Positions 2,920 to 64,000 of a stretch of 64,000 bases of DNA are shown piece by piece. A model generated the notes under the pieces. It had not been told where the DNA came from. It saw nothing but the letters and a program-made list of their open reading frames with translations, and searched no databases. The stretch is from Gambelia wislizenii (Eukaryota > Chordata > Lepidosauria > Squamata > Crotaphytidae): assembly GCA_030847615.1 (NCBI GenBank), contig JAUMIR010000001.1:157887001-157951000 (forward strand), in the 5' to 3' direction. Position 1 is the first letter of the stretch. The number at the start of each line of letters is the position of its first letter. The translations under genes were made by a program, and so were the position numbers.

Positions 2920-3168
2920 ATAGGTGCAAGGGGGATCTATATCACAAGCTTGTCTCCATTGTACAAAGTTTAATATGCAGACAAGCTTCCTCTTTTTCTT
3001 CCCTCTGTTCAGAAATTCCCTGATAGAGATCCCAGCTCTGTGATCCCAATGAGCCAAATGAATCGTACCACATTTTAGATACAGAGGCCTAATTTATATG
3101 TGATGCTGGGCAAAGTGAAATTGCTCACTTAAGCACGTTCCCATTCACATTTGTAAATATATAGAGAG

Positions 3169-3390
3169 AGTTGGCCCTCTGTATCCATGGATTCTGCATC
3201 CATGGCTTCCACCATCCATGGCTTGAAAGTTTTCCCAAAAATATTCCAAAAAGCAAAGCTTGATTTTGCCATTTTATATAAGGGACACCATTTTACTACA
3301 CCATTGTATATAATGGGACTTGAGCAGCCATGGATTTTGGTATCCATGGGGTGTGTGTGTCCTGGAACCAAACCCCAAGGGTCTACTGTA
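3169..3390 (-). mobile_element. Tigger-like MITE
   Basis: The end beginning AGTTGGCCCTCTGTATCC and the far end near GGGTCTACTGTA form the terminal repeats of a pogo/Tigger-type short element. The body matches, in reverse, the copies at 41522-41736 and 56718-56932 (shared 'aagggacaccattttac' block). No coding capacity. Confidence 0.65.
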
Positions 3391-3422
3391 CATATGAATA
3401 AAAGGATGTTAAAAACAGTAAA

Positions 3423-3584
3423 GAGAGCCAGAGTGGTGTAGTAGTTTCATCATTGGACTATGGCTCTGGAGACGCTAGATCTCTGCTCAGCCATAGAAAC
3501 CCGCTGGGTGACCCTGGGCAAGTCACATGCTCTCAGCCTCAGAGGAAGGCAAAGGCAAACCCCCTCTGAAGAACAAATCTTGCA
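3423..3584 (+). mobile_element. tRNA-derived SINE, 3'-truncated
   Basis: Starts 'agagccagagtggtgtagtag', then a MIR-like core 'gggtgaccctgggcaagtca' and 'cctctgaagaacaaatcttg'. The downstream tail seen in the copy at 50437-50626 is missing; the copy stops where the family B MITE begins. Such SINEs are transcribed by Pol III and moved by a LINE. Confidence 0.7.
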
Positions 3585-4757
3585 TACACAAAAGTCAGCA
3601 ACTGCTACTTGTCTTAAAGGGATTTTTGGCAGATCGCAGGCATGTGAAGCTATTCACGTTTGCTGTGCAATCAGGCATGCCTGAAAATCAAGATGGTGGC
3701 CACAAGTGAATTACTCGTGTTTTTACTTACCTCAGTTTGCCGCCACCAGACAGTATTTTTTTAAAACCATATCCAAGGTGTGAAAGAGAGATCTTTCGCT
3801 TTAACAAAAAAGGAATCAAAAAACGTCATTTTATCTCCTTAGTGCTTACTCACTAAGGCAAAAATCCAACATGGCAGCTCTGCGCACTTGCCTTGTTAGC
3901 AAGCGCTGCCCCCCCCCGCACATCTGACCAATCAGCTTTCAACTTTTGCTTATATAGGGAAAGCAAATTAAATTGAATTGCTTGTCCCAATGAGCAGAAA
4001 TGTGCATCCCCCCTACTGTTTTTTTGAAAGTTCGGGGAAAGCCACAAAGGCTTTTCCCATAAAGTATATGGGGGATTTGATCCCCCTCCTTCCCAATACA
4101 TCAGAATGATGTGGGATGCCATTTAGGAAATTATCAGACGACCCCAAAAGTCCGGTACAGGCATGACAGGAGATCGCTAGAGGGCTTGAATATCAGATGA
4201 TGTCGTCCTTGTCCTGTTATGCCCCCTTGCTGCTTCTGTTCCATCCATGTTCCTTTTTATTGACAGCTTAAGCCATCAATAGATCACCCATTCCGTTCCT
4301 GTCACGAAACAACAGGCGAGCAAAAAGGAGCCCCATTATGCTGGTGCGATGCTAGCCACAGTGGGAGGTCTGTGCCGAACACTTCCGGGTGCGTTCAGGA
4401 CATCCAGGTAAATGATAGACTTTTTTTGTACCCTCCCTGGGTTACTCAGTGTTTTAAAAGTGTGTTTCTGTGCTTTTTTTTGACATTTATTTTTCTCTAT
4501 ATTTTTAAATTTTCTGCACGACCGTCCTCTTGCAAGAACGGCCGGAATTTTGTTTCCAGGAAGTGAATTAAGCTCCATGGGGGCTGCATTCACTTCTGGC
4601 TGCTGGAGGGGAGGGGAGGACTTTTAATCACACAGCAAGGTAGGTATCTGAAAAATTTTCATTTAATCAGTTATAGGAACGGAAGTGGGGCAGGAGGGGG
4701 AGTTGCGAGATGAGGCGGGGTTTTTTGGTCCCCATCTGATAATCTCCTTAGACAGAT
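3585..4757 (+). mobile_element. MITE family B, 5'-truncated and interrupted
   Basis: The sequence from about 3590 matches the interior of the copy at 53049-53689 ('gcagatcgcaggcatg', 'aaaatccaacatggcag'). Its right end reads 'ccattta', is cut by a family A MITE at 4126-4747, and resumes with 'gacagatg' after the TTA duplication, matching 'ccatttagaca' in the 53-kb copy. The left terminus is lost beside the SINE. Confidence 0.65.
4126..4747 (+). mobile_element. MITE family A, complete copy inside a family B MITE
   Basis: Ends GGAAATTATCAGACG and CATCTGATAATCTCC are inverted repeats. A perfect TTA duplication flanks them (4123-4125 and 4748-4750). The internal hairpin TATTGACAG...CCATCAATA lies near 4259-4281. 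Length is 622 bp, the same as the copy at 40396-41017. The host family B sequence reads straight across once one TTA and this element are removed. Confidence 0.8.
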
Positions 4758-9036: not shown

Positions 9037-9080
<44 letters not shown>

Positions 9081-9089
9081 TCTCTCTCT
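9037..9089. repeat. (TC)n microsatellite, the tail of an RTE-like LINE
   Basis: About 53 bases of almost pure TC/CT. On the minus strand it is (GA)n directly after the LINE 3' end. The same tail, shorter, ends the copies at 16106, 43189 and 54238. Confidence 0.85.
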
Positions 9090-9489
9090 GGCTTTTCTTC
9101 ACAAATAAAGATTCAGGAAGGACTCATCCTGCACTTTCTGCAAGCGCACTGATGACTAAAAAGGCCAATCTGAGATAAACAAGTTGGGTTGCAGAAAGCA
9201 CAGCAGAAGGTCTCCTTGGGTGATGTTTCCGGGTTGTGATTCTTTCTGTGTTGTCATTTCTCTTCAAGACTTGTTCGGCGTGAGTTCTCAAATAAGGCAG
9301 CAGCATTGTGGATAGTGCGTCTCCATACCTCCCAATGTGAGGCCAGGGCGGACCATTGTTGCTGATCAATTTGGCCGAGCCTGAGATGTTGTTTCAGGGA
9401 GTCCTTGTATCGCTTTTTTTGGAGCGCCCCTCTTACGCTGACCTGTGGTGAGTTCACCGTAGGGTACTATTTGGGGGAGGCAATGGTCA
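9090..9489 (-). mobile_element. RTE-like LINE, 5'-truncated
   Basis: Only the last 400 bp of the LINE. On the minus strand it encodes the end of the protein, with the recognisable stretches RYKDSLKQHLRLGQIDQQQW and WRRTIHNAAALFENSRRTSL in one frame and the zinc finger end in another, so it is frameshifted. The terminal hairpin has decayed (9097-9110, CTTC-acaaat-AAAG). It joins CR1 sequence directly at its 5' end. Confidence 0.8.
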
Positions 9490-9593
9490 CCCATCCTATA
9501 TCTGTGCTTTTCATTTTACTGCCCGAGTGTAGTATCCTACATTTCTCCCTGTTGAGATTCATTTTGTTAGTTTTGGCCCAGCTTTCTACTCTG

Positions 9594-10800
9594 TTAAAGA
9601 TCATTTTGAATTCTGATCCTGTCCTCTGGGGCATTAGCTACCCCTCCTAATTTGGTGTCATCTGAAAACTTGATAAGCATGCCTTCTATTACGTTATCCA
9701 AGTTGTTAATAAAGATGTTGAATAGCACTGGGCCCAGGACAGAACCATGTGGCACACCGCTGGTCCCTTTTCTCCAAGATGAAGAGGAGCCATTAGTGAC
9801 TACCTTTTGGATTCGGCCCATCGACCTATTACAAATCCACATAACAGTTGCATTGTCTAGCCCACATGTTATTAACTTTTTTTGCAAGGATATCATGGAG
9901 GACTTTGTCAAAAGCCTTACTGAAATCAAGATACACTACATCCACGGCATTCCCTTCATCTACCAAGTATGTAACTCTATTGAAAAAAAAGAGATAAGAT
10001 TGTGTTTTTCAAAAACCCATGTTGACTTTTAGTGATCACGGCAAACCTTTCTAAGTGCTTACAGACTGTTTGATGATCTGCTCTAGAATCTTTCCTAGTA
10101 TTGATGTTAGGGTGACTGGACAATAATTATTTAGATCTTCTTTTTTCCCCTTTTTCAAGATGGGGACAACATTTGCCCTCTTCCAGTCCTCTGGTACCTC
10201 TCCTGTTCTCCAGGAATTCTCAAAGATTATTGCCAGTGGTTCTGCAATTACTTCTGTCAGTTCTTTTAGTACCCTTGGATGTAATTCATCTGGACCTGGA
10301 GACTTGAATTCATTTATACTGGCCAGGTATGCCTAAACTACCTCTTTACCTATTCTATGCTGCATTTCCCCTACTACATAATCTGCTCCATTTTCTCTAG
10401 TTTGAGCACTGTTCTCCTTTTGGGAGAAAACTGGGGCAAAGAAAGTGTTGAGTAGTTCTGCCTTTTCTCTGTACCCTGTTAGCATTTCGCCATCTTCTCC
10501 TTGCAGTGGTCCAACTACTTCCTTGTTCCTTCTTTTGCTACTAACACATCCAAAAAAGCCGTTTTAATTGTTTTTAACCTCTCTAGCAAGCCTGAGCTCC
10601 ATCTGTGCTTTGCTTTTCTGATTTCCCCGCTAGATGAGTTGGCTATTTGTTTTAATTCTGCTTTAATGATTTCTCCTGTTTTCCATTTCTTGTACAAGTC
10701 CTTTTTAAGTTTTAGCTCAGTTGAGAGTACTTTTGACATCCATACTGGTTTCTTTAGATGCCTCCAATTTTTCCTCCTCATGTTTGAAGTTGTGTCTTCA
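9594..10800 (-). pseudogene. CR1 reverse transcriptase, 5' half plus EN-RT linker
   Basis: The minus strand shows the motif SGVPHGSVLGPVLFNIFIN (RT block 4/B; normally GVPQGSVLGP) and the catalytic block as MLIKFSDDTKLGG, where the usual FADD reads FSDD. Further 5' is the basic linker region (MSKVLSTELKLKKDLYKKWK) between endonuclease and RT. At least three frames are needed, so it cannot be made as one protein. The CR1 copies at 56 kb and 49 kb show the same segments and allow alignment. Confidence 0.8.
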
Positions 10801-15533: not shown

Positions 15534-16594
15534 GTACTTTATCAGATGTGACAAAAATCACACAATTACGATATTATGGTAGCATGAATGGTTTTTGCTA
15601 TCACACAATGTCATGTTTGCATGGTCAATCTTTGCTCCAGCCGCAAATAAGGCATTGCTTTTCATTGATGGAACAAGCTGTCAATAGCCCTCAATATCAT
15701 GTGTTGTTGTTGTTGTTTTGTTTGTGATTTTTTTTTCAGTATTAAAGAGCGTGTGAAAACATCTCACTGTAATTGTGAGATTACAGCATGAGTGGCCAGC
15801 CCTCTTTCCCCTTTCCCTGTTCCTGGCGAGAAAACATCGGGGTGAGAACATGAAAACTATCCACAGAATGCTCTCTTTATGAACTGCCCTGGTTTGTTTG
15901 CAAGTTTTTTGGTTTAAGTGTTTGTGTGTTCATTCACTTTGTACATTAAGGGGGTTTTGGTGTTTTTAAGCCTGCTTACATCTTCTCATGAGAACCACCA
16001 AAATCTTACCTATGCTAAATCATGGAAGTAAAGTCCCGTTCTTAGTGTTAGTGGTGGTCATGCGATAATTCTGTGGCAGTTCTTTTGTGCAATTACAGTG
16101 ATATGCTCTCTCTCTCTCTCTCTCTCTCTGGCTTTTCTTCGCAAACGAAGATTCAGGAAGGATTCATCCCGCGCCTTCTGCAAGCGCGCTGATGACTAAA
16201 AAGGCCAATCCAAGATAAACAAGTCCGGTTGCAAAAAGTGCAGCAGAAGGTCTCCTTGGGTGATGTTTTTGGGTTGTGATTCTTTCTGCGTTGTCGTTTC
16301 TCTTCAAGACTTGTTTGGCGTGAGTTCTCAAATAAGGCTGCAGCATTGTGGATAGTGCGTCTCCATGCCTCCCGATGTGAGGCCAGGGCGGACCACCGTT
16401 GGTGATCAATCTGGCCAAGCCTGAGATGTTGTTTCAGGGAGTCCTTGTATCGCTTTTTTGGAGCGCCCCTCCCACGCTGACCCGTGGCGAGTTCACCGTA
16501 GAGTAGTATTTTTGGGTGTAATAATGCCACTCATGCTTCTGCTTTCCTCATACGCAGAATTACAGTGTTTTTAGATGCTAGTCTGATAAAGTCC
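15534..16594 (+). mobile_element. MITE family A, split by an RTE-like LINE
   Basis: Left end GTACTTTATCAGATG, right end CTAGTCTGATAAAGTCC, flanks TTT and TTA. The body is collinear with the uninterrupted copy at 29415-30034 ('agcatgaatggtttttgcta', 'tctctttatgaactgccctg', 'gcagaattacag'). The internal hairpin is near 15664-15688. Sequence 16106-16516 is a LINE insertion absent from the 29-kb copy. Confidence 0.8.
16106..16516 (-). mobile_element. RTE-like LINE, 5'-truncated, inside a MITE
   Basis: (CT)n tail at 16106-16129, then the LINE 3' end. The minus-strand frame 16153-16530 reads through the last about 115 residues without a stop: LLYGELATGQRGRGAPKKRY, WRRTIHNAAALFENSRQTSL, and the zinc finger FCCTFCNRTCLSWIGLFSHQ followed by RAC. 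The TGA stop (16153-16155) is two bases from the hairpin CTTCG-CAAA-CGAAG (16137-16150). This is the best preserved short copy. Confidence 0.85.
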
Positions 16595-36045: not shown

Positions 36046-36527
36046 CAGTTGTCCCTCCACATTCGCGGGGGTTAGAGGCATGAGACCCCCGCAAATGTGA
36101 AAAAACAGCGAATAAAAACTAGGTCACGCCACCACCCTCCCGCAACCCCCGCTGCTTCTCCCCCCCCCCCCCCGGAGCAGCGACGGGACTACCCAAGCCT
36201 CGTCGCTGCTTCCTCCCACCCTCTCCCACACACACCCCAGGAGCAGCAACGGGGCTACCCAAGCCTCATCACTGCTTCCTCCCTCCCTCTCTTGCCTCCC
36301 CAGGAGCAGTGACAGGGCTACCCAAGCCTTGTCGCTGCTTCCTCCCCCCTATCCCCCCCGGAGTAGCGATGGGGCTACCCAAGCCTCATCGCTGCTTCCT
36401 CCCACCCCCCCACCCCCCCCAGGAGCAGTGACCCCATTGCAGTTTTTTGGATGGCGGGGGGACACTCCCCAAACCGCAAATAGTCAAAACCACGAATCTT
36501 AAAGCCACAAATGTGGAGGGGCAATTG
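36046..36527. mobile_element. Tigger-like MITE carrying a minisatellite
   Basis: Ends CAGTTGTCCCTCCACATTCG and GTGGAGGGGCAATTG, with TA at both sides (36044-36045, 36528-36529). Inside, about 36170-36430 holds four copies of a roughly 62-66-bp unit. Each contains a hairpin of the type GAGCAGCGACGGGGC...TCGTCGCTGCTTCC, separated by C-rich spacers. The minisatellite explains why this copy is twice the length of its relatives. Confidence 0.75.
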
Positions 36528-42828: not shown

Positions 42829-43098
42829 TAGAATCATAGAATTGTAGAGTTGGAAGAGACCATGAGGGCCATCCAGTCCAACCCCCTGCCATGCAGGAAT
42901 ACACAATTAAAGCATCCTTGACAGATGGCCATGCAGCCTCTGTTTAAAGACCTCCTAGGAAGGAGACCCCACCACGCTCCGAGGGAGTGTGTTCCACTGC
43001 CAAACAGCTCGTACTGTTAAAAAGTTCCTCCTAATGTTGAGGTGGAATCTCTGTTCCTGGAGCTTACACCCATTGTTCCCTGTTTAGTCTCTTGAGCA
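42829..43098 (-). mobile_element. CR1 LINE, 3' terminal fragment
   Basis: On the minus strand it ends with the CR1 terminal repeat ATTCTATGATTCTATA. The body ('tccagtccaaccccctgcca', 'agcctctgtttaaagacctc' on the plus strand) encodes the untranslated end common in amniote CR1s. 5'-truncated. Confidence 0.85.
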
Positions 43099-43188
43099 GC
43101 AGAAAACAAGCTTAAATTTTTTTAAAAAATTATTTTTATCCCGCCCCTCTGTTAAAAACAATCGGGGCAGCTTAGAAAATTAAAATAC

Positions 43189-45935
43189 CTCTCTCTCTTT
43201 CTGGCTTTTCTTCGCAAACGAAGATTTAGAAAGAACTCATCCTGCGCTTACTGCAAGCTCGCTGATGACTAAAAAGGCCAATCCGAGATAAACAAGTCGG
43301 GTTGCAGAAAGCACAACAGAAGGTCTCCTTGGGTGATGTTTCTGGGTTGTGATTCTTTCTGCGTTGTCGTTTCTCTTCAAGACTTGTTCGGCATGAGTTC
43401 TCAAATAAGGCTGCAGCATTGTGGATAGTGTGTCTCCATGCCTCCTGATGTGAGGCCAGGGCAGACCATTGTTGGTGATCAATTTGGCTGAGCTTGTAAT
43501 GTTGTTTCAAGGACTCCTTGTATCGCTTTTTTGGAGCACCCCTCTTACGCTGACCCGTGGCGAGTTCACCATAGAGTACTATTTTTGGGAGGTGATGGTC
43601 CTCCATCCTAGAAACATGCCCTGCCCAACACAGCTGTGTTCTCAATATCATGGCCTCAATGCTGGTGATCCCTGCTTGCTCAAGGACAGCAACATTCGCA
43701 ACATAGTCAGTCCAGTATATATTTAGGATTGTGTATAAACAGCGCTGATGAAAGCGTTCGAGGAGTCGTAAGTGGTGGCGATAGGTGACCCATGTTTCAG
43801 ATCCATAAAGGAGAATAGACAGTACAATGGCTCTATACACACTGATTTTTGTGCTTCGCCTCAGGTGTTTATTACTCCAGATTCTTTTGTAAAGTCTTCC
43901 AAATGTGCTATATGCCTTTGCTAATCTGTGATCAATCCCTTTGTCAATCTTGGCATCTGAGGAGATGATGCTTCCCAGGTAGGTGAACTGCTGAACAGAC
44001 TTAAGCACAGAGTTGCTGATGGCAATGTGGGGATGGTGGTGTTCGTCCTGTAGTGCAGGCTGGTAAAGAACTTCCGTTTTCTTAAGGTTGACTTCCAGCC
44101 CAAACAGCTCTGCAGCTGTTGCGAAGCAGGATGTTAGGCGCTGCAGAGTTGCTTCTGTGTGGGCAACAAGGGCAGCAGCATCAGCAAAGAGCAGTTCACG
44201 GACTAGATAATTTAGAGTCTTGGTGCGAGCTCTCAATTGGCTTAAGTTAAACAAGCGACCATCAGTATGGTAACGTATATAGATGCCGTCATCTTCTTCA
44301 GGCTCTGCCGTAGCCCTTTGGAGCACCCATGCTGAAGAAGATTGTAAATAAAGTTGATGCAAGAACACAACCTTGCTTCACTCCATTTGTTATTAGAAAG
44401 GGCTCTGAAAGAGCATCGCCATATCTGACTTGACCATGCTGGCCCTCATGTAGCATGATAATCTTTTTAAGGAATCTGGAGGGAAATCTTAGTCTTTCAA
44501 GGATCTACCACAGACCTTTTCTACTCACGGTGTCAAAGGCTTTGGTGAGGTCAACAAATGTTACATAGAGACCCTTGTTCTGCTTTCTACATTTCTCTTG
44601 CAGTTGTCTAAGGGCAAGTACTCCTATTGGCTCTGAAGCCACCTTGGCTTTCAGGGAGAAGTTCTTCTGCAATAGCAGGAACTAATCTGTTCAGGAGTAT
44701 CCTTGCAAGGATTTTTCCAGCAATAGAGAGCAGTGTTATGCCTTGATAGTTTGAGCAATCGGATTTTGCTCCTTTTTTCTTGTACAGGGTGATGATGACT
44801 GCATCTCGGAGATCTGATGGCAGTTCCCCTTTTTCCCAGCAATTCACAAGGAGTTTGTGGAATTTTTCATGGAGTACATGACCTCCGTGTTTCCAAACTT
44901 CAGGTGGGATTCCATCAATCCCAGCTGCCTTGCCGTTTTTCATCTGCTGTATGGCCTTAAGGGTCTCTTCCAAAGTGGGAGCTATGTCCAATTCATTTTT
45001 CACCGGTTTTTGTATCATATGTTGGATAGCTGAGCCTTGGACTACTTGGTTGGCACTGAAGAGACTTTGAAAGTGTTCAGCCCATCGATTCAGGATGGAG
45101 GCTTTATCAGTAATTAATGTTTGACCATCTTTACTGTATAAGGAGCTTTGGACCTGATAAGTAGGTCCAAACACTGCCTTAAGAGCTTCATAAAATCCTC
45201 TAAAATCACCCATATCTGCACAGCATTGTGTCTTTTCTGCTATATTGATCCACCACTTGTTCTGTATGTCTCGGAGTTTTTGGTGATGTTTACTACATGT
45301 GAGACGAAAAGCTGCTTTTCTTACATGGCAACTTGGCTGGGCAAGGTATGCCTGGTGAGCAGTTCTCTTCTTTGCCAAAATCTCTTGGATCTCTTGGTTG
45401 TTTTCATCAAACCAGTCTTGATTTTTTTGGCGGAGAACCTGAGGGATTCTTCCACAGACTGCAGCATACTGTTTTTGATATGCTGCCAAAGCACTGTAGG
45501 AGAAGGATCTGTAGGATGGTCTTCAAGTTTTGTTTGCAGATTTGCCTGGAAGTTTTCTCTCATGGTAGCTTGTTGGAGATTGTTGACTTGGAGTCTCTTC
45601 TTTAAGATGCCACCCCTCTTAGGTTTGAGCTTAAGATAAAGATTTAGTTTACATCTGACGAGGCGATGATCTGTTTGGCATTCTGCACTGGGCATCACTT
45701 GGGTATGACGGACATCGCGAATGTCTCTCTGACGGACTAGAACATAGTCAATGAGGTGCCAATGTTTGGATCAGGGATGCATCCAGGTTGTCTTCAAGCT
45801 GTCTTTCTGCTGAAAGATTGTGTTTGTAATAGTCAGCTGTCGTTCTGCACAGAACTCTAGCAGGAGGCACCCATTACCATTGCAATTTCCCTCTCCATTG
45901 ATGCCCCCTTGTCGTGAGAGAGAGGCTTGCGTACA
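43189..45935 (-). mobile_element. RTE-like LINE, 2.75 kb, inserted in the L2 3' UTR
   Basis: A 7-bp duplication AAAATAC flanks it (43182-43188 and 45936-45942). It ends on the minus strand with a stop codon, a hairpin (43210-43223) and a short (AG)n. The 5' end is cut within the endonuclease. Encoded blocks run from the endonuclease C-terminus through RT to a zinc finger. The L2 reads on across the insertion ('aaaattaaaatac' to 'aataccaatacag'). Confidence 0.85.
43226..45915 (-). pseudogene. RTE-like endonuclease-reverse transcriptase protein, broken
   Basis: From the 5' side: GNCNGNGCLLLEFCAERQLT and a SKHWHLIDYVLVRQRDIRDV block with SAECQTDHRLVRC (endonuclease C-terminus, D-H kept); AAYQKQYAAVCGRI onward (44608-45489) with NGKAAGIDGIPPEVWKHGG, KGAKSDCSNYQGITLLSIAG and ESQGGFRANRST (RT N-terminal blocks); VDLTKAFDTVSRKGLW and NGVKQGCVLASTLF; then LLFADAAALVAH, where the second Asp of FADD is Ala; then an open C-terminal region (43226-44368) ending in FCCAFCNPTCLSRIGLFSHQ plus RAC, a C-x2-C...H-x3-C finger. 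Frameshifts near 44370-44610 and 45320-45700 and the lost catalytic Asp make it inactive. Affinity to the RTE group is inferred from endonuclease type, the C-terminal region and the tail; a Vingi/Ingi-type origin is an alternative. Confidence 0.8.
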
Positions 45936-46224
45936 AAAATACCAATACAGATTAAACCCCCCAAATGACACCCACCCCACCCTCCCCCATAAAATGACAT
46001 TAAACCAAAATACATTAAACAACTGATCTAAAATCACATTAAAATAATAAATAAGCAGCAGACTAAAAAGGGCCAGGAACTCCTGAGGCCGGGAACTAAT
46101 TAGGAAAGGCCTGCTGAAAGAGATCCGTCTTTAGTGCTTTTTTAAAGCTACTCAGGCTCGTCATCTGATGGATCTCGTTCGGCAGGCCATTCCACAATTT
46201 GGGGGCGATTACCGAAAAGGCCCT

Positions 46225-47652
46225 CTAGGAGGTTGCAGACAGCCTAGATTTTTGTGGCTGAAGCAAATTCCTCCCAGATGACCAGAGTGTGCGGGGAGGA
46301 TTGAATGGGAGGAGGTGGTTCCAAAGATAAGTTGGACCCAAGCCATTTAGGGCTTTAAAGGTAATAACCAACACCTTATACTGGGCCCAGACACTGATAG
46401 GCAGCCAGTGGAGAGATTTTAATACTGGAGTTATATGATCTCTCCGAGATGTTCCTGAGACCACTCTGGCTGCCATATTTTGTACCAACTGAAGTTTCTG
46501 GACCAAGCATGAGGGTAGCCCCATGTAGAGTGCATTGCAGAAATCTAGACGAGAGGTTACCAGCACATGCACCACAGTCTCGAGGTCCTTTTTTTCCACG
46601 AAATGGCGCAGCTGGCGTATCAGCCGAAGCTGATAACAGGTGCTCCTGACTTTTGCATTCACCTGACTCATCATCTGAAGCAATGAATCAAGGAGCACCC
46701 CCAGACTGCAAACACAGTCCTTAATGGAGAGTGTGACCCCGTCCAGGACTGGAGGTTGCAACCCAACTCCTGGTTTTAGGGCTGCTACCATGAGCACCTC
46801 CGTTTTGTCTGGATTTAATCTCAATCTGTTTTTCCTCATCCAGCCCATTACTGCTTTAAGACAATCATTAAGAGGAGAGACGCCATCGGAATTCAAGACT
46901 GACGATCGGGACAAGGAGAAATAGATCTGGGTGTCATCAGCATACTGATAACACCCAGTCCCATAACTCCGAATAATCTCACCCAGCGGCTTCATATAGA
47001 TGTTAAACAACATCGGGGACAGGATGGCGCCTTGCAGAACACCACAAGTAAGCTCCTTTCTGCTGGAGCAGCTGTCCCCGAGCAGCACCCTCTTGGACCT
47101 GCCTGAGAGGAAGGACCGGAACCACTGGAGCGCAGTGCCTCCAATTCCTAACCCACTCAGGCGATCCAAAAGGATGCTATGATCTATCGTATCGAAAGCC
47201 GCTAAGAGGTCCAAAAGCTCCAACAGGGTCACACTACCCCTGTCGATGCTTAGACGCAGGTCATCTGTCAAGGCAACCATGGCAGTCTCAACTCCAAATC
47301 CCATCCTAAAGCCAGTTTGAAATGGGTCTATATAATCAGTTTCATCCAAGACCACTTGGAGTTGAAGCGCAACTGCCCTCTCAATCACTTTGCTCAAGAA
47401 TGGTAACACAGAAACCAGCCTATAGTTGTTCATGTCCAGGGGGTCCAGGGAAAGTTTTTTCAGGAGCGGCCTAACCGCCGCTTCCTTTAAACAGGATGGA
47501 ACACACCCTTCTCTGAGGGATGCACTGATGATGTCCCTAAGGAACACCATCAAGGCACCCCCCCGGATGGCCAGCCATGACAGGCAAGGATCGAGAGGGC
47601 AGGTAGTCTTCCTCACCCAACCAAGTAGTTTGTCCACGTCCTCGGTACTCAT
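46225..47652 (-). CDS. L2 reverse transcriptase, open for 475 codons
   Basis: Non-LTR reverse transcriptase that would copy L2 RNA at a nicked target. RT blocks are all readable: VRPLLKKLSLDPLDMNNYRL with VSVLPFLSKVIERAV (about residues 60-95), DPFQTGFRMGFGVETAM, LLDLLAAFDTIDHSILLDRL (first catalytic Asp, usual DLSAAFDT), GVLQGAILSPMLFNIYM (usually GVPQGSILSP), and the catalytic box CYQYADDTQIYF (both Asps present). The thumb and C-terminal region follows, with TSRLDFCNALYMGLPSCLVQ and LKSLHWLPISVWAQYKVLVI. No internal stop. The Met is only the first in the open frame; the true protein continues from the endonuclease, separated by a frameshift near 47650. Confidence 0.8.
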   Translation of the reverse strand: MSTEDVDKLLGWVRKTTCPLDPCLSWLAIRGGALMVFLRDIISASLREGCVPSCLKEAAVRPLLKKLSLDPLDMNNYRLVSVLPFLSKVIERAVALQLQVVLDETDYIDPFQTGFRMGFGVETAMVALTDDLRLSIDRGSVTLLELLDLLAAFDTIDHSILLDRLSGLGIGGTALQWFRSFLSGRSKRVLLGDSCSSRKELTCGVLQGAILSPMLFNIYMKPLGEIIRSYGTGCYQYADDTQIYFSLSRSSVLNSDGVSPLNDCLKAVMGWMRKNRLRLNPDKTEVLMVAALKPGVGLQPPVLDGVTLSIKDCVCSLGVLLDSLLQMMSQVNAKVRSTCYQLRLIRQLRHFVEKKDLETVVHVLVTSRLDFCNALYMGLPSCLVQKLQLVQNMAARVVSGTSRRDHITPVLKSLHWLPISVWAQYKVLVITFKALNGLGPTYLWNHLLPFNPPRTLWSSGRNLLQPQKSRLSATS

Positions 47653-48960
47653 GAATTAAATTCATCCAGTAAACTTACATCAACAGAGTTGCTGGACACC
47701 TCATCAATTGTTTCTGTCAAAATACTGGCATCTAAGTCAGCTCTTATCCGAGAGATTTTATCTGCAAAGAAGTTGTTAAACGCGTCACAGCAGGCCGTTG
47801 TTGGGTTAAGCAACGGGTTTTGCATCATCTCCCTTACCACCCTGAACAACTCTGCTCGATGGGACTCTGCAGATGCAATACGTGCAGAGGAGAAGGATCT
47901 CTATGCTGCACTTATTGCCTCTCAATAGGACCAAAGGAAGTTCCTTTGATGAGTCCTGTTGGATAAGAGCTGAGTTTTCCGCCAGTTGCGCCCTAGTCGT
48001 TGTCCAACACACTTCATTTTCCTAAGCTCTGATGTATACCATGACTTACGGTTTGGAGCGGGTTGGAAAGGACGCTTGGGAGCGATCGTGTCAATAGCCT
48101 TGGTAAGCTTGGTGTTGCAGGTATTAACCAAAGCTTCAACAGGGTCACAGGCATTACCAACCATTAACCCCTCCAAGGCTTTCTGGAATCCTATTGGTTC
48201 CATTAGCCTTCGGGGGCGGAACATTCTAATGGGTCCACCACTTCCGGTGGGATGGGAAGAGACTCTTAGTTCAGTCTTGACCAGGAAATGATCCATCCAT
48301 GACAATGCAGTGGTTTTAATAACCTCCGCCCACGGATATTCCTGTTTTGTACTGAAGACCACATCGAGGGTATGACCCGCACAATGTATGGGCCCGACGA
48401 CCATTTGGGATAGGCCCATGTTTGTCATGGTCTCCATGAACTCCCTAGCCGCACCAGTCAGATTTGTCAAGCTGGTCTCGAGTGGAATGTTGAAGTCGCC
48501 CAAAACTAAAAGTCTGGGCGACTCCAACAGCAATTCTGAGACCAGCTGTGCCAGCTCGGTTAGGGAGTCTGCTAGACAACGGGGTGGTCGGTATACTAGC
48601 AGAATCCCCAAACTATCCCTGGTCCTCAGGCTAAGGTACATACACTCAAAGTGGACTGTGTTTCGGACAGGTATCCTGGTCAAGGTCAGATTGTCCTTAT
48701 AAACCAGAGCCACTCCGCCCCCCCCCCCACCCACTTCCCCTCACCAGCTCACTGACAGAATATCCAGCTGGGAGGGCCTGTGCCCACGTGACAGAGCTAT
48801 CCTCTCCCAGCCAGGTTTCTGTGAAGCAAGCCAGGTCAGTATCCTCATCCAAAAGGAGATTGTAAATAATTTGAGTTTTATTCTTAACCAACCTGGCATT
48901 GCAGAGGAGCAAAGTAAGGTTCTGTTGAATGGTGGGTATGCTCTCCAATCCATTCTGGGA
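47653..48960 (-). pseudogene. L2 APE endonuclease and linker, frameshifted
   Basis: Starts in frame 48697-49251 with [20 protein letters not shown] and [13 protein letters not shown] (N-terminal E of the active site), shifts near 48720 in a run of C (48718-48728), then continues 47922-48734 with [39 protein letters not shown] (GDFN kept) and ALSWMDHFLVKTEL, where the usual SDH reads MDH with Asp and His kept. The linker to RT (47649-47849: FNNFFADKISRIRADLDASI) is in another frame. Three frameshifts separate otherwise well conserved blocks, so the copy is fairly young. Confidence 0.8.
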
Positions 48961-54237: not shown

Positions 54238-54545
54238 CTCTCTCTCTCTCTCTCTGGCTTTTCTTCGCAAACGAAGATTCAGGAAGGAATCATCCTGCGC
54301 TTTCTGCAAGTGCGCTGATGACTAAAAAGGCCAATCTGAGATAAACAAGTCCGGTTGCAGAAAGCACAGCAGAAGGTCTCCTTGGTGATGTTCCTGGGTT
54401 GTGATTCTTTCTGCGTTGTCATTTCTCTTCAAGAGTTATTTGGCATGAGTTCTCAAATAAGGCTGCAGCATTGTGGATAGTGCATCTCCATGCCTCCCAA
54501 TGTGAGCCCAGGGCGGACCATTATTGGTGATCAATTTGGCTGAGC
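54238..54545 (-). mobile_element. RTE-like LINE, last 290 bp
   Basis: (CT)n tail at 54238-54255, intact hairpin CTTCG-CAAA-CGAAG (54263-54276), then the zinc-finger-encoding end. It is cut at 'atcaatttggctgagc'. Frame breaks are present (a G is missing near 54386). Confidence 0.85.
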
Positions 54546-54838: not shown

Positions 54839-55984
54839 GCCCTTGAAGGCTTCTGGAAGCCTCTCTCCATTGTACTGTTGGCAAGCGCAATATGATGACA
54901 GATAGTTCTGAAACAAGGGTCAATCCAGTACACAATTTATATGGATTATTCACATTGGAATAGCTCCATCTATACTTAGCAGGAAGATATTATTACGCAT
55001 AGAATAGGGCATTTAAAAAACGGGAGGAGGCAAAATGCATGACCAAACAAACTATCTTGCCTCCAGTTTCAAAAATACGTGGCGGGGGCAAGGGGGCAAA
55101 GAAACCAGCACAGAATAATAATAAGTGTGCTACAGAGAGAGAGAGAGAACTAATAAATATGTTGTTTAATAGCAATATAATGTGTAGTGTTGTTACTTTG
55201 CCTAGAAAACACCCTATGAGAACTCAAATTGCTCTGTGTGAAAATCAGAGGCTGGAATTGCCATTATGCACCAGTGACCAGTTTTCTGACTTTATATTGA
55301 ATAATTCAAAAGATATTACTTAACTCCACATCCCCCCCACCCCAGTTATGGAGTGAAGGACTGGACTTATTTATCATCTGCTAAAGAAGAAGGCAGCAGC
55401 CTTATGAACAAATAGAACTATCACTATAGGATATCCAATAAATAATCCCATACCCATTAATATTTGTGGGTTGTGTGGTTTTTAAAACAGAGGATAGAAG
55501 TCTTTCTCAATGTCAACTTAGCTGCTCAGTTCAATCACTAGCTATAAACTGCATGAACTGTATGGGGTCCATTGACATCATATGTAAGAAACTGAGCCAG
55601 TGGAGGTGGCGTTGAGAATATGTTGTTTGAAGTACAGACATTTACATGTGTACACTGTCTCATCCCCAAACCAATGGCATAATGGCTATCAGATGCCATA
55701 TTTTCAGAGAGGAAAATTGTTTTCTTTTGATTTTATTGTTTGCTTATGTGACATCACATGATGTTAGGGAATGTCACCCAGTGCTGGGGATAGAATAAGG
55801 ATCTGAATTTTCCAAGCCTTGCTTCTCAGCATTGGCTGTTTTATTCATTTCAAAGACAGAGATTTATGAAGCAAGATAGAATTTTATCACATGTTTTCCA
55901 TCTGTCCTGTCAAGTTGAGGGCCTTTTGTTGAAAAGCAACATTAAAATACACGGTAACATAGCAAACACAAATACAGTTAAGTA
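54839..55984. other. No gene or named repeat seen
   Basis: Includes a short (AG)n run at 55135-55148. The 94-codon frame at 55039-55323 has no domain. Confidence 0.4.
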
Positions 55985-63617: not shown

Positions 63618-63817
63618 TAGTTGGCTTCTCAGTGGGTCTAGTTTTTGTATTTATTGCTGCATGCCTTGCAGAACATAACAGAACACACCCCTGGGACCAG
63701 CCAAAGACACTTTGCTTCCCCACCCATTCCATATACAGAAACCAACCCAACTTCAACTCACTCTTGGACTATCCTGCCTTGGATACTCAAGTATCATATC
63801 CCAGGTAATATATGGAA

Positions 63818-64000
63818 ACAGAAGTTCTTTACCAGCCTGCACCACAGGACGAACACCACCATCCCCACATTGCCATTGGCAAATCTGTGCTCAAGTCCGT
63901 TCAGCAGTTCACCTACCTGGGAAGCATCATCTCCTCAGATGCCAAGATTGACAACGAGATCGATCATAGATTAGCAAAGGCATATAGTGCATTTGGAAGA
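63818..64000 (+). mobile_element. RTE-like LINE, start of a plus-strand copy running off the window
   Basis: An open frame to the window end reads TEVLYQPAPQDEHHHPHIAI, KSVLKSVQQFTYLGSIISSD and AKIDNEIDHRLAKAYSAFGR, matching the RT region just after the catalytic box in the 43-kb copy (KKTEVLYQPALQDEHHHPHI). It begins within RT, so it is 5'-truncated. No stop in the visible part. Confidence 0.85.

Follow-up and report, generated by a model that had tools for sequence, protein, structure and literature searches.

How RTE elements choose their RNA when it has almost no 3′ UTR is, to our knowledge, an open question, and the choice matters both for the way RTEs establish themselves in new hosts and for their hijacking by SINEs.

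RTE elements carry unusually short 3′ UTRs which consist mostly of simple repeats (PMC1291365, in part). In lepidopteran RTEs, microsatellite units, (GA)n included, follow the stop codon and 3′-partial copies seed microsatellites (PMC2887409, in part). AviRTE has been described from seven bird clades and has a 3′ UTR of about 40 bp; its hosts are birds, manakin, tyrant-flycatcher and antbird lineages among them, and filarial nematodes. It is distant from BovB and closer to the RTEs of aquatic animals, turtles and crocodilians are marked in the same tree, and the AviRTE consensus sequences differ from each other by 0.009-0.169 at the DNA level (PMC4844689, in part). RTE insertions are reported to bear a Tn-TA signature, three T residues about 10 nt upstream of a target-site duplication (TSD) that is cut at TA (PMC13295347). 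ZfL2-2 no longer retrotransposes once its 3′ stem-loop is deleted, and this stem-loop is bound by the part of the protein that lies between endonuclease and reverse transcriptase (RT) (PMC4176376, in part).

Copies of one LINE and their 3′ ends

The window (the whole 64-kb stretch of squamate DNA that was analysed) holds four minus-strand copies of one LINE with a 3′ end, referred to here as the 9-, 16-, 43- and 54-kb copies, and an internal fragment of the same element (Table 1). The four 3′ ends have a common layout: stop codon, A, a 16-nt hairpin, AAAGCC and an AG/(GA)n run. The 3′ UTR before the repeat measures 23 nt, 16 of which are taken up by the hairpin, and in every one of the four copies the GA run comes next, which supports the preliminary description of an RTE-like element with a very short 3′ UTR and a simple-repeat tail. 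The sequence AAAAGCCAG adjoining the hairpin is identical in all four copies. The stop codon is TGA in the 9-, 16- and 54-kb copies and TAA in the 43-kb copy, where the AG run begins AGAAAGAG on the element strand.

On that strand, the hairpin of the 16-, 43- and 54-kb copies is TCTTCG-TTTG-CGAAGA. Its 14-nt core, CTTCGCAAACGAAG, matches the window at 16137, 43210 and 54263 and nowhere else, even with up to two mismatches (chance expectation 0.18), and all three sites are 3′ ends of minus-strand copies of the one LINE, just as the preliminary description had them. Its perfect stem next to a stop codon was also found, but the stem measures 6 bp instead of 5 and begins a single base past the stop codon instead of two. 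The hairpin of the 9-kb copy is CTTTATTTGTGAAG, with three changes, every one at a CpG position. Six pairs remain, including one wobble and one double change, with a folding energy of -1.7 versus -5.2 kcal/mol for the intact hairpin; what had been called a decayed stem is altered and weaker but still pairable.

Table 1. Positions of the LINE copies and of their parts in the window
Feature	Position	Strand	Basis
RTE-type LINE copy (43 kb), 5′-truncated in endonuclease region, frame broken	43189..45935	-	self match, three-frame translation, likely TSD
Open frame: end of RT core, following region, C-terminal C2HC zinc finger; stop TAA 43226-43228	43226..44368	-	
Open frame: pre-RT region and start of RT	44608..45489	-	RVT_1, E 3.5e-4, 20.8 bits (curated cut-off 29.6)
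Perfect 16-nt hairpin of 43-kb copy, 6-bp stem, loop TTTG, one base past stop codon	43209..43224	-	
GA tail of 43-kb copy (AGAAAGAGAGAG...)	43189..43202	-	
Likely TSD GGTATTTT, 3′ copy; first G overlaps GA tail	43182..43189	-	
Likely TSD GGTATTTT, 5′ copy, within 3′ part of another LINE	45936..45943	-	
5′-truncated copy (16 kb); hairpin 16136-16151, stop TGA 16153-16155, tail 16106-16129	16116..16516	-	
Likely TSD CACTGTAATT, 3′ copy (5′ copy 16558-16567)	16091..16100	-	
5′-truncated copy (54 kb); hairpin 54262-54277, stop TGA 54279-54281, tail 54238-54255	54242..54545	-	
5′-truncated copy (9 kb); altered, pairable hairpin 9096-9111, tail 9037-9089	9078..9498	-	
Internal fragment of same LINE, runs off window end	63816..64000	+	self match

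The four copies are collinear at their 3′ ends and differ in their 5′ limits, three of them being truncated to 305-421 aligned nt. The 43-kb copy extends over about 2.75 kb and starts in the endonuclease region, and its three-frame translation contains at least three frame changes as well as in-frame stops. The 16- and 43-kb copies had been singled out as keeping the frame. The 54-kb copy does lose it, through a 1-base deletion upstream. Shared words in the flanks, which are likely TSDs, were detected for two of the four copies, namely GGTATTTT (8 nt) for the 43-kb copy and CACTGTAATT (10 nt) for the 16-kb copy; the flanks of the 9- and 54-kb copies contain no shared word of at least 7 nt, and no TSD was found there. 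In a control of 400 random comparisons of 35 x 100 bases, words of at least 8 nt occurred in 3.75% and words of at least 10 nt in 0.5%; the actual flanks compared were larger (about 49 x 120-145), so that the true chance of such a word is roughly double. Inspected by eye for the Tn-TA signature, one of the two TSDs is preceded by TTT at a distance of 10 nt, though its first base is G, and the other has no TTT at that place. In the 16-kb copy, 41 nt (16517-16557, minus strand), perhaps 5′-junction filler, separate the likely 5′ TSD from the point where the element becomes recognisable. The stretch adjoining the 9-kb copy (9500-9900, minus strand) resembles a CR1 LINE fragment.

Ranked by length, the top three perfect GA/TC arrays in the window are all tails of the RTE-type LINE. 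Altogether there are 14 perfect GA/TC runs of at least 8 bp, and five of these entries, representing four arrays, are situated at LINE ends, the fourth tail being just 10 bp long. A 15-bp GA/TC run at 55134 is apparently unconnected with the LINE, and the window also contains a GC-rich minisatellite (36166-36432; period 63-66 bp, 3.3-4.3 copies).

Truncation together with likely TSDs is the mark of ordinary target-primed insertions, and the pattern of truncation, likely TSDs and GA arrays agrees with the mechanism put forward for lepidopteran RTEs, in which target-primed reverse transcription is accompanied by slippage in the tail (PMC2887409, in part). New copies would arise by target-primed reverse transcription begun within the GA tail, where slippage would produce the microsatellite; early stopping would give the 5′-truncated copies, and the hairpin would already have been present in the 3′ UTR of the source element and handed on. 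All copies, being 5′-truncated or broken, look dead, and the likeness of the truncated ones shows what their source looked like. Very probably, then, we are dealing with dead copies of an RTE-type LINE related to AviRTE in a squamate genome, with a hairpin inherited from the source and priming in the GA tail.

A second squamate LINE is present on the minus strand (45936-48734 plus about 43080-43189), with an endonuclease frame at 47922-48734 and an RT frame at 46225-47652; it is presumably L2/CR1-like. For the latter frame, the named proteins among the best 120 of at least 1922 matches are mostly from squamates, Anolis, Hemicordylus, Podarcis and Varanus first, which marks the host as a squamate. 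The 43-kb copy appears to sit in the 3′ end of this second LINE, between the two copies of GGTATTTT.

The encoded protein and its relatives

The frame at 43226-44368 yielded 726 protein matches at E <= 1e-3, and among the best 120, which were listed, the closest named ones are eight suboscine-bird proteins. The four best-covered of these, from Pseudopipra (73% identity), Manacus (72%), Myiozetetes (74%) and Pitangus (74%), have query coverages of 76-95%, and four with lower coverage have identities of 76, 70, 72 and 57%. Other named proteins in the list come from Penaeus, molluscs, corals, carp, medaka, rays, lancelet, mantis shrimp and softshell turtle; many entries are nameless, and some of these match no less closely than the bird proteins (71-73% over part of the query). 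With the Pseudopipra protein as query instead, largely the same set came back (best 120 of 853 listed). No nematode is named among the listed matches of either search, which lends no help to a connection with AviRTE but does not refute it either, as most entries are nameless.

Since the closest named relatives are suboscine-bird proteins and these birds fall within the host range of AviRTE (PMC4844689, in part), we infer that these proteins probably represent AviRTE, to which the window element would then be closely related, a placement drawn from loosely named proteins and the published host distribution. The preliminary description could not place the element in a described family; its closest named listed relatives now point to AviRTE or close kin.

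Though truncated and broken in frame, the 43-kb copy retains the order endonuclease end, RT and finger, the endonuclease end having been recognised by eye from known motifs. Pfam reported no family for the frame at 43226-44368 at E 0.001. The RVT_1 match in the upstream piece stays below the curated cut-off, yet PF00078 is present in most of the listed relatives. When the frame at 43226-44368 was aligned with 12 of the 120 listed matches, nine of the 12 relatives reached the C-terminal C2HC finger; six of these end 8-9 residues past the position of the last cysteine (which is replaced in one of them), as compared to 8 in the window protein, and three end after 1-4 residues. The position of the stop thus looks old, as judged from relatives that are predicted proteins, some of them probably from broken copies.

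The structure model of the protein is poor (mean pLDDT 55.5), and its sole feature used here is a finger shape, strands and a helix near residues 350-378 (block pLDDT 61-78). Foldseek gave no match to the model at E <= 0.001; above this value, zinc fingers and R2 were among the matches. The window frame alone found one match among solved structures, at E 0.7, and a profile searched against PDB found R2 and L1 reverse transcriptases (E from 6e-17) and, weakly, zinc fingers (E 0.3-1). The element would encode an endonuclease and an RT with a C-terminal C2HC zinc finger, and its stop codon would lie 23 nt before the (GA)n tail.

Protein scans confirmed no DNA of relatives in viral contigs, genome contigs or phages, the viral contigs also having been searched by exact patterns. 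In a plasmid collection, one match, 26% identical across 63% of the query, was too distant. It lies at 3001-3717 of NZ_CP104070.1, a 'plasmid' record of 39.8 kb from Alicyclobacillus fastidiosus with only two annotated features, and is an unannotated, broken LINE-like RT, perhaps a eukaryotic contamination of the record.

Retention of the stem and the choice of RNA

The hairpin had been regarded as the recognition structure of the RT on the grounds that its stem is conserved in independent copies. This is not supported: the four 3′ ends differ pairwise by 7.6-9.8%, mostly by transitions, and the copies are truncated or broken and share a source. As they differ by so little and look dead, and should not be under selection after insertion, a shared stem is expected, and we rejected stem likeness as proof of function. 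Inheritance from one recent master, which the preliminary description itself had named as speaking against its proposal, matches the appearance of the four copies.

Retention was compared with neutral expectation using rates measured outside the hairpin and a consensus of the same four copies in which ties were resolved to the CpG form. Under these settings, the neutral chance that all 16 bases are kept is 0.25 for the 9-kb, 0.40 for the 16-kb, 0.25 for the 43-kb and 0.14 for the 54-kb copy, and P for an intact stem in at least three of the four is about 0.05. Elsewhere, 61 of 260 overlapping 16-nt windows are equally well kept, among them none of the 37 with two CpGs; the hairpin has kept 6 of 8 CpGs versus 26 of 52 in the remainder of the region that all four copies span (one-sided Fisher p 0.17). 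Retention in three of four copies and the lack of an equally well kept two-CpG window lean slightly beyond inheritance, at most a hint, coming as it does from four copies that look dead and should not be selected. Compensating changes in the stem had also been proposed as a check. Only one of the four copies is variable, and its single double change, G-C to A-T, was rejected as compensatory, all three changes being CpG transitions with decay on both sides. That the stem still pairs proves nothing, since, by hand count, three CpG hits can be placed in four ways, of which two preserve a pairable stem.

The hairpin is ordinary for the window in both frequency and energy. A perfect hairpin with at least 6 bp and a loop of 3-8 occurs in 614 of 9138 40-nt segments (6.7%), a fold no less stable than that of the 3′ UTR is reached by 957 of 3763 36-mers, and equally good hairpins are present at seven other places within the 2.75-kb copy. 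No Rfam family matched at the gathering threshold, ARAGORN found no tRNA gene, and, as regards a SINE with the 3′ end of the LINE, the tail motif with up to three mismatches matches just the four LINE copies in the window.

What the RT recognises can be read in two ways. We lean slightly towards the view that the enzyme relies solely on the linear 3′ sequence or on the GA tail, the palindrome being incidental. The invariant AAAAGCCAG beside the hairpin agrees with this, as do a butterfly RTE with a 14-bp 3′ UTR that has repeats alone directly after the stop codon (PMC2887409, in part) and the abundance of comparable hairpins in the window and in the 43-kb copy itself; against it stand the share of the 23-nt UTR that is filled by the hairpin and the neutral P of 0.05 for its retention. 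By analogy with L2-clade LINEs, the protein of the element might instead bind the stem-loop in its own RNA and start reverse transcription in the adjacent (GA)n. The order of stem-loop, short spacer and repeats does resemble stringent LINEs such as ZfL2-2 (PMC4176376, in part). Moreover, SINEs using AviRTE carry its full 3′ UTR (PMC4844689, in part) and about 49 bases of a hagfish SINE match the 3′ end of an RTE (PMC7245038, in part), which indicates that the final tens of bases of RTEs hold something of importance and renders hairpin recognition plausible. The three intact copies and the persistent pairing of the variable 9-kb stem would also suit it. However, the copies appear dead and go back to one recent source, the lone double change is CpG decay on both sides, the hairpin is ordinary in the window, and stem-loop binding has been demonstrated for another clade. 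The word 'hairpin' has no occurrence in the main texts of PMC2887409, PMC1291365, PMC4844689 and PMC7245038, nor have 'stem' and 'secondary structure' in that of PMC2887409, and a search by title and start of abstract, mostly of literature other than subscription journals, found no paper on a 3′ hairpin in RTEs. We therefore regard recognition of the hairpin as doubtful.

Its furthest-reaching form, an AviRTE-like LINE in which the 16-nt stem-loop one base past the stop codon would be the whole RNA recognition signal, possibly read by the protein's own zinc finger at the C terminus or by the linker that joins endonuclease and RT, we consider unlikely. If true, few LINEs of any kind would have a 3′ recognition unit as small as this stem-loop, and a stem shown to be recognised would be an unusually small and testable signal. 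As it stands, the element is one more squamate RTE-type LINE with the usual minimal 3′ end.

Comparison with described LINEs

AviRTE shares with the window element the RTE type and a short 3′ UTR (about 40 bp, as compared to 23 nt before the repeat). Suboscine birds, an AviRTE host group, are also the source of the closest named listed proteins, and both have kin among aquatic animals, turtles and crocodilians. They differ in that the window protein is mostly 70-76% identical to the bird proteins (57% in one case) and that its host is a squamate. The 70-74% protein identity to the best listed bird proteins may point to a distance beyond the published DNA range of AviRTE (up to 0.169). Bov-B likewise belongs to the RTE clade and has squamate hosts and a microsatellite-like 3′ end, but its tail is (CAA)n in most reptiles (PMC13295347) whereas that of the window LINE is (GA)n. 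Lepidopteran RTEs have insect hosts and resemble the element in the stop codon followed by an extremely short simple-repeat 3′ UTR, with (GA)n among the reported units (PMC2887409, in part). The stringent L2-clade LINEs ZfL2-1, ZfL2-2 and UnaL2 belong to a different clade, and their stem-loop has been assayed in cells and in vitro whereas the window hairpin is known from sequence alone; in common with the window LINE, they have a stem-loop near the 3′ end which is followed by short repeats (PMC4176376, in part).
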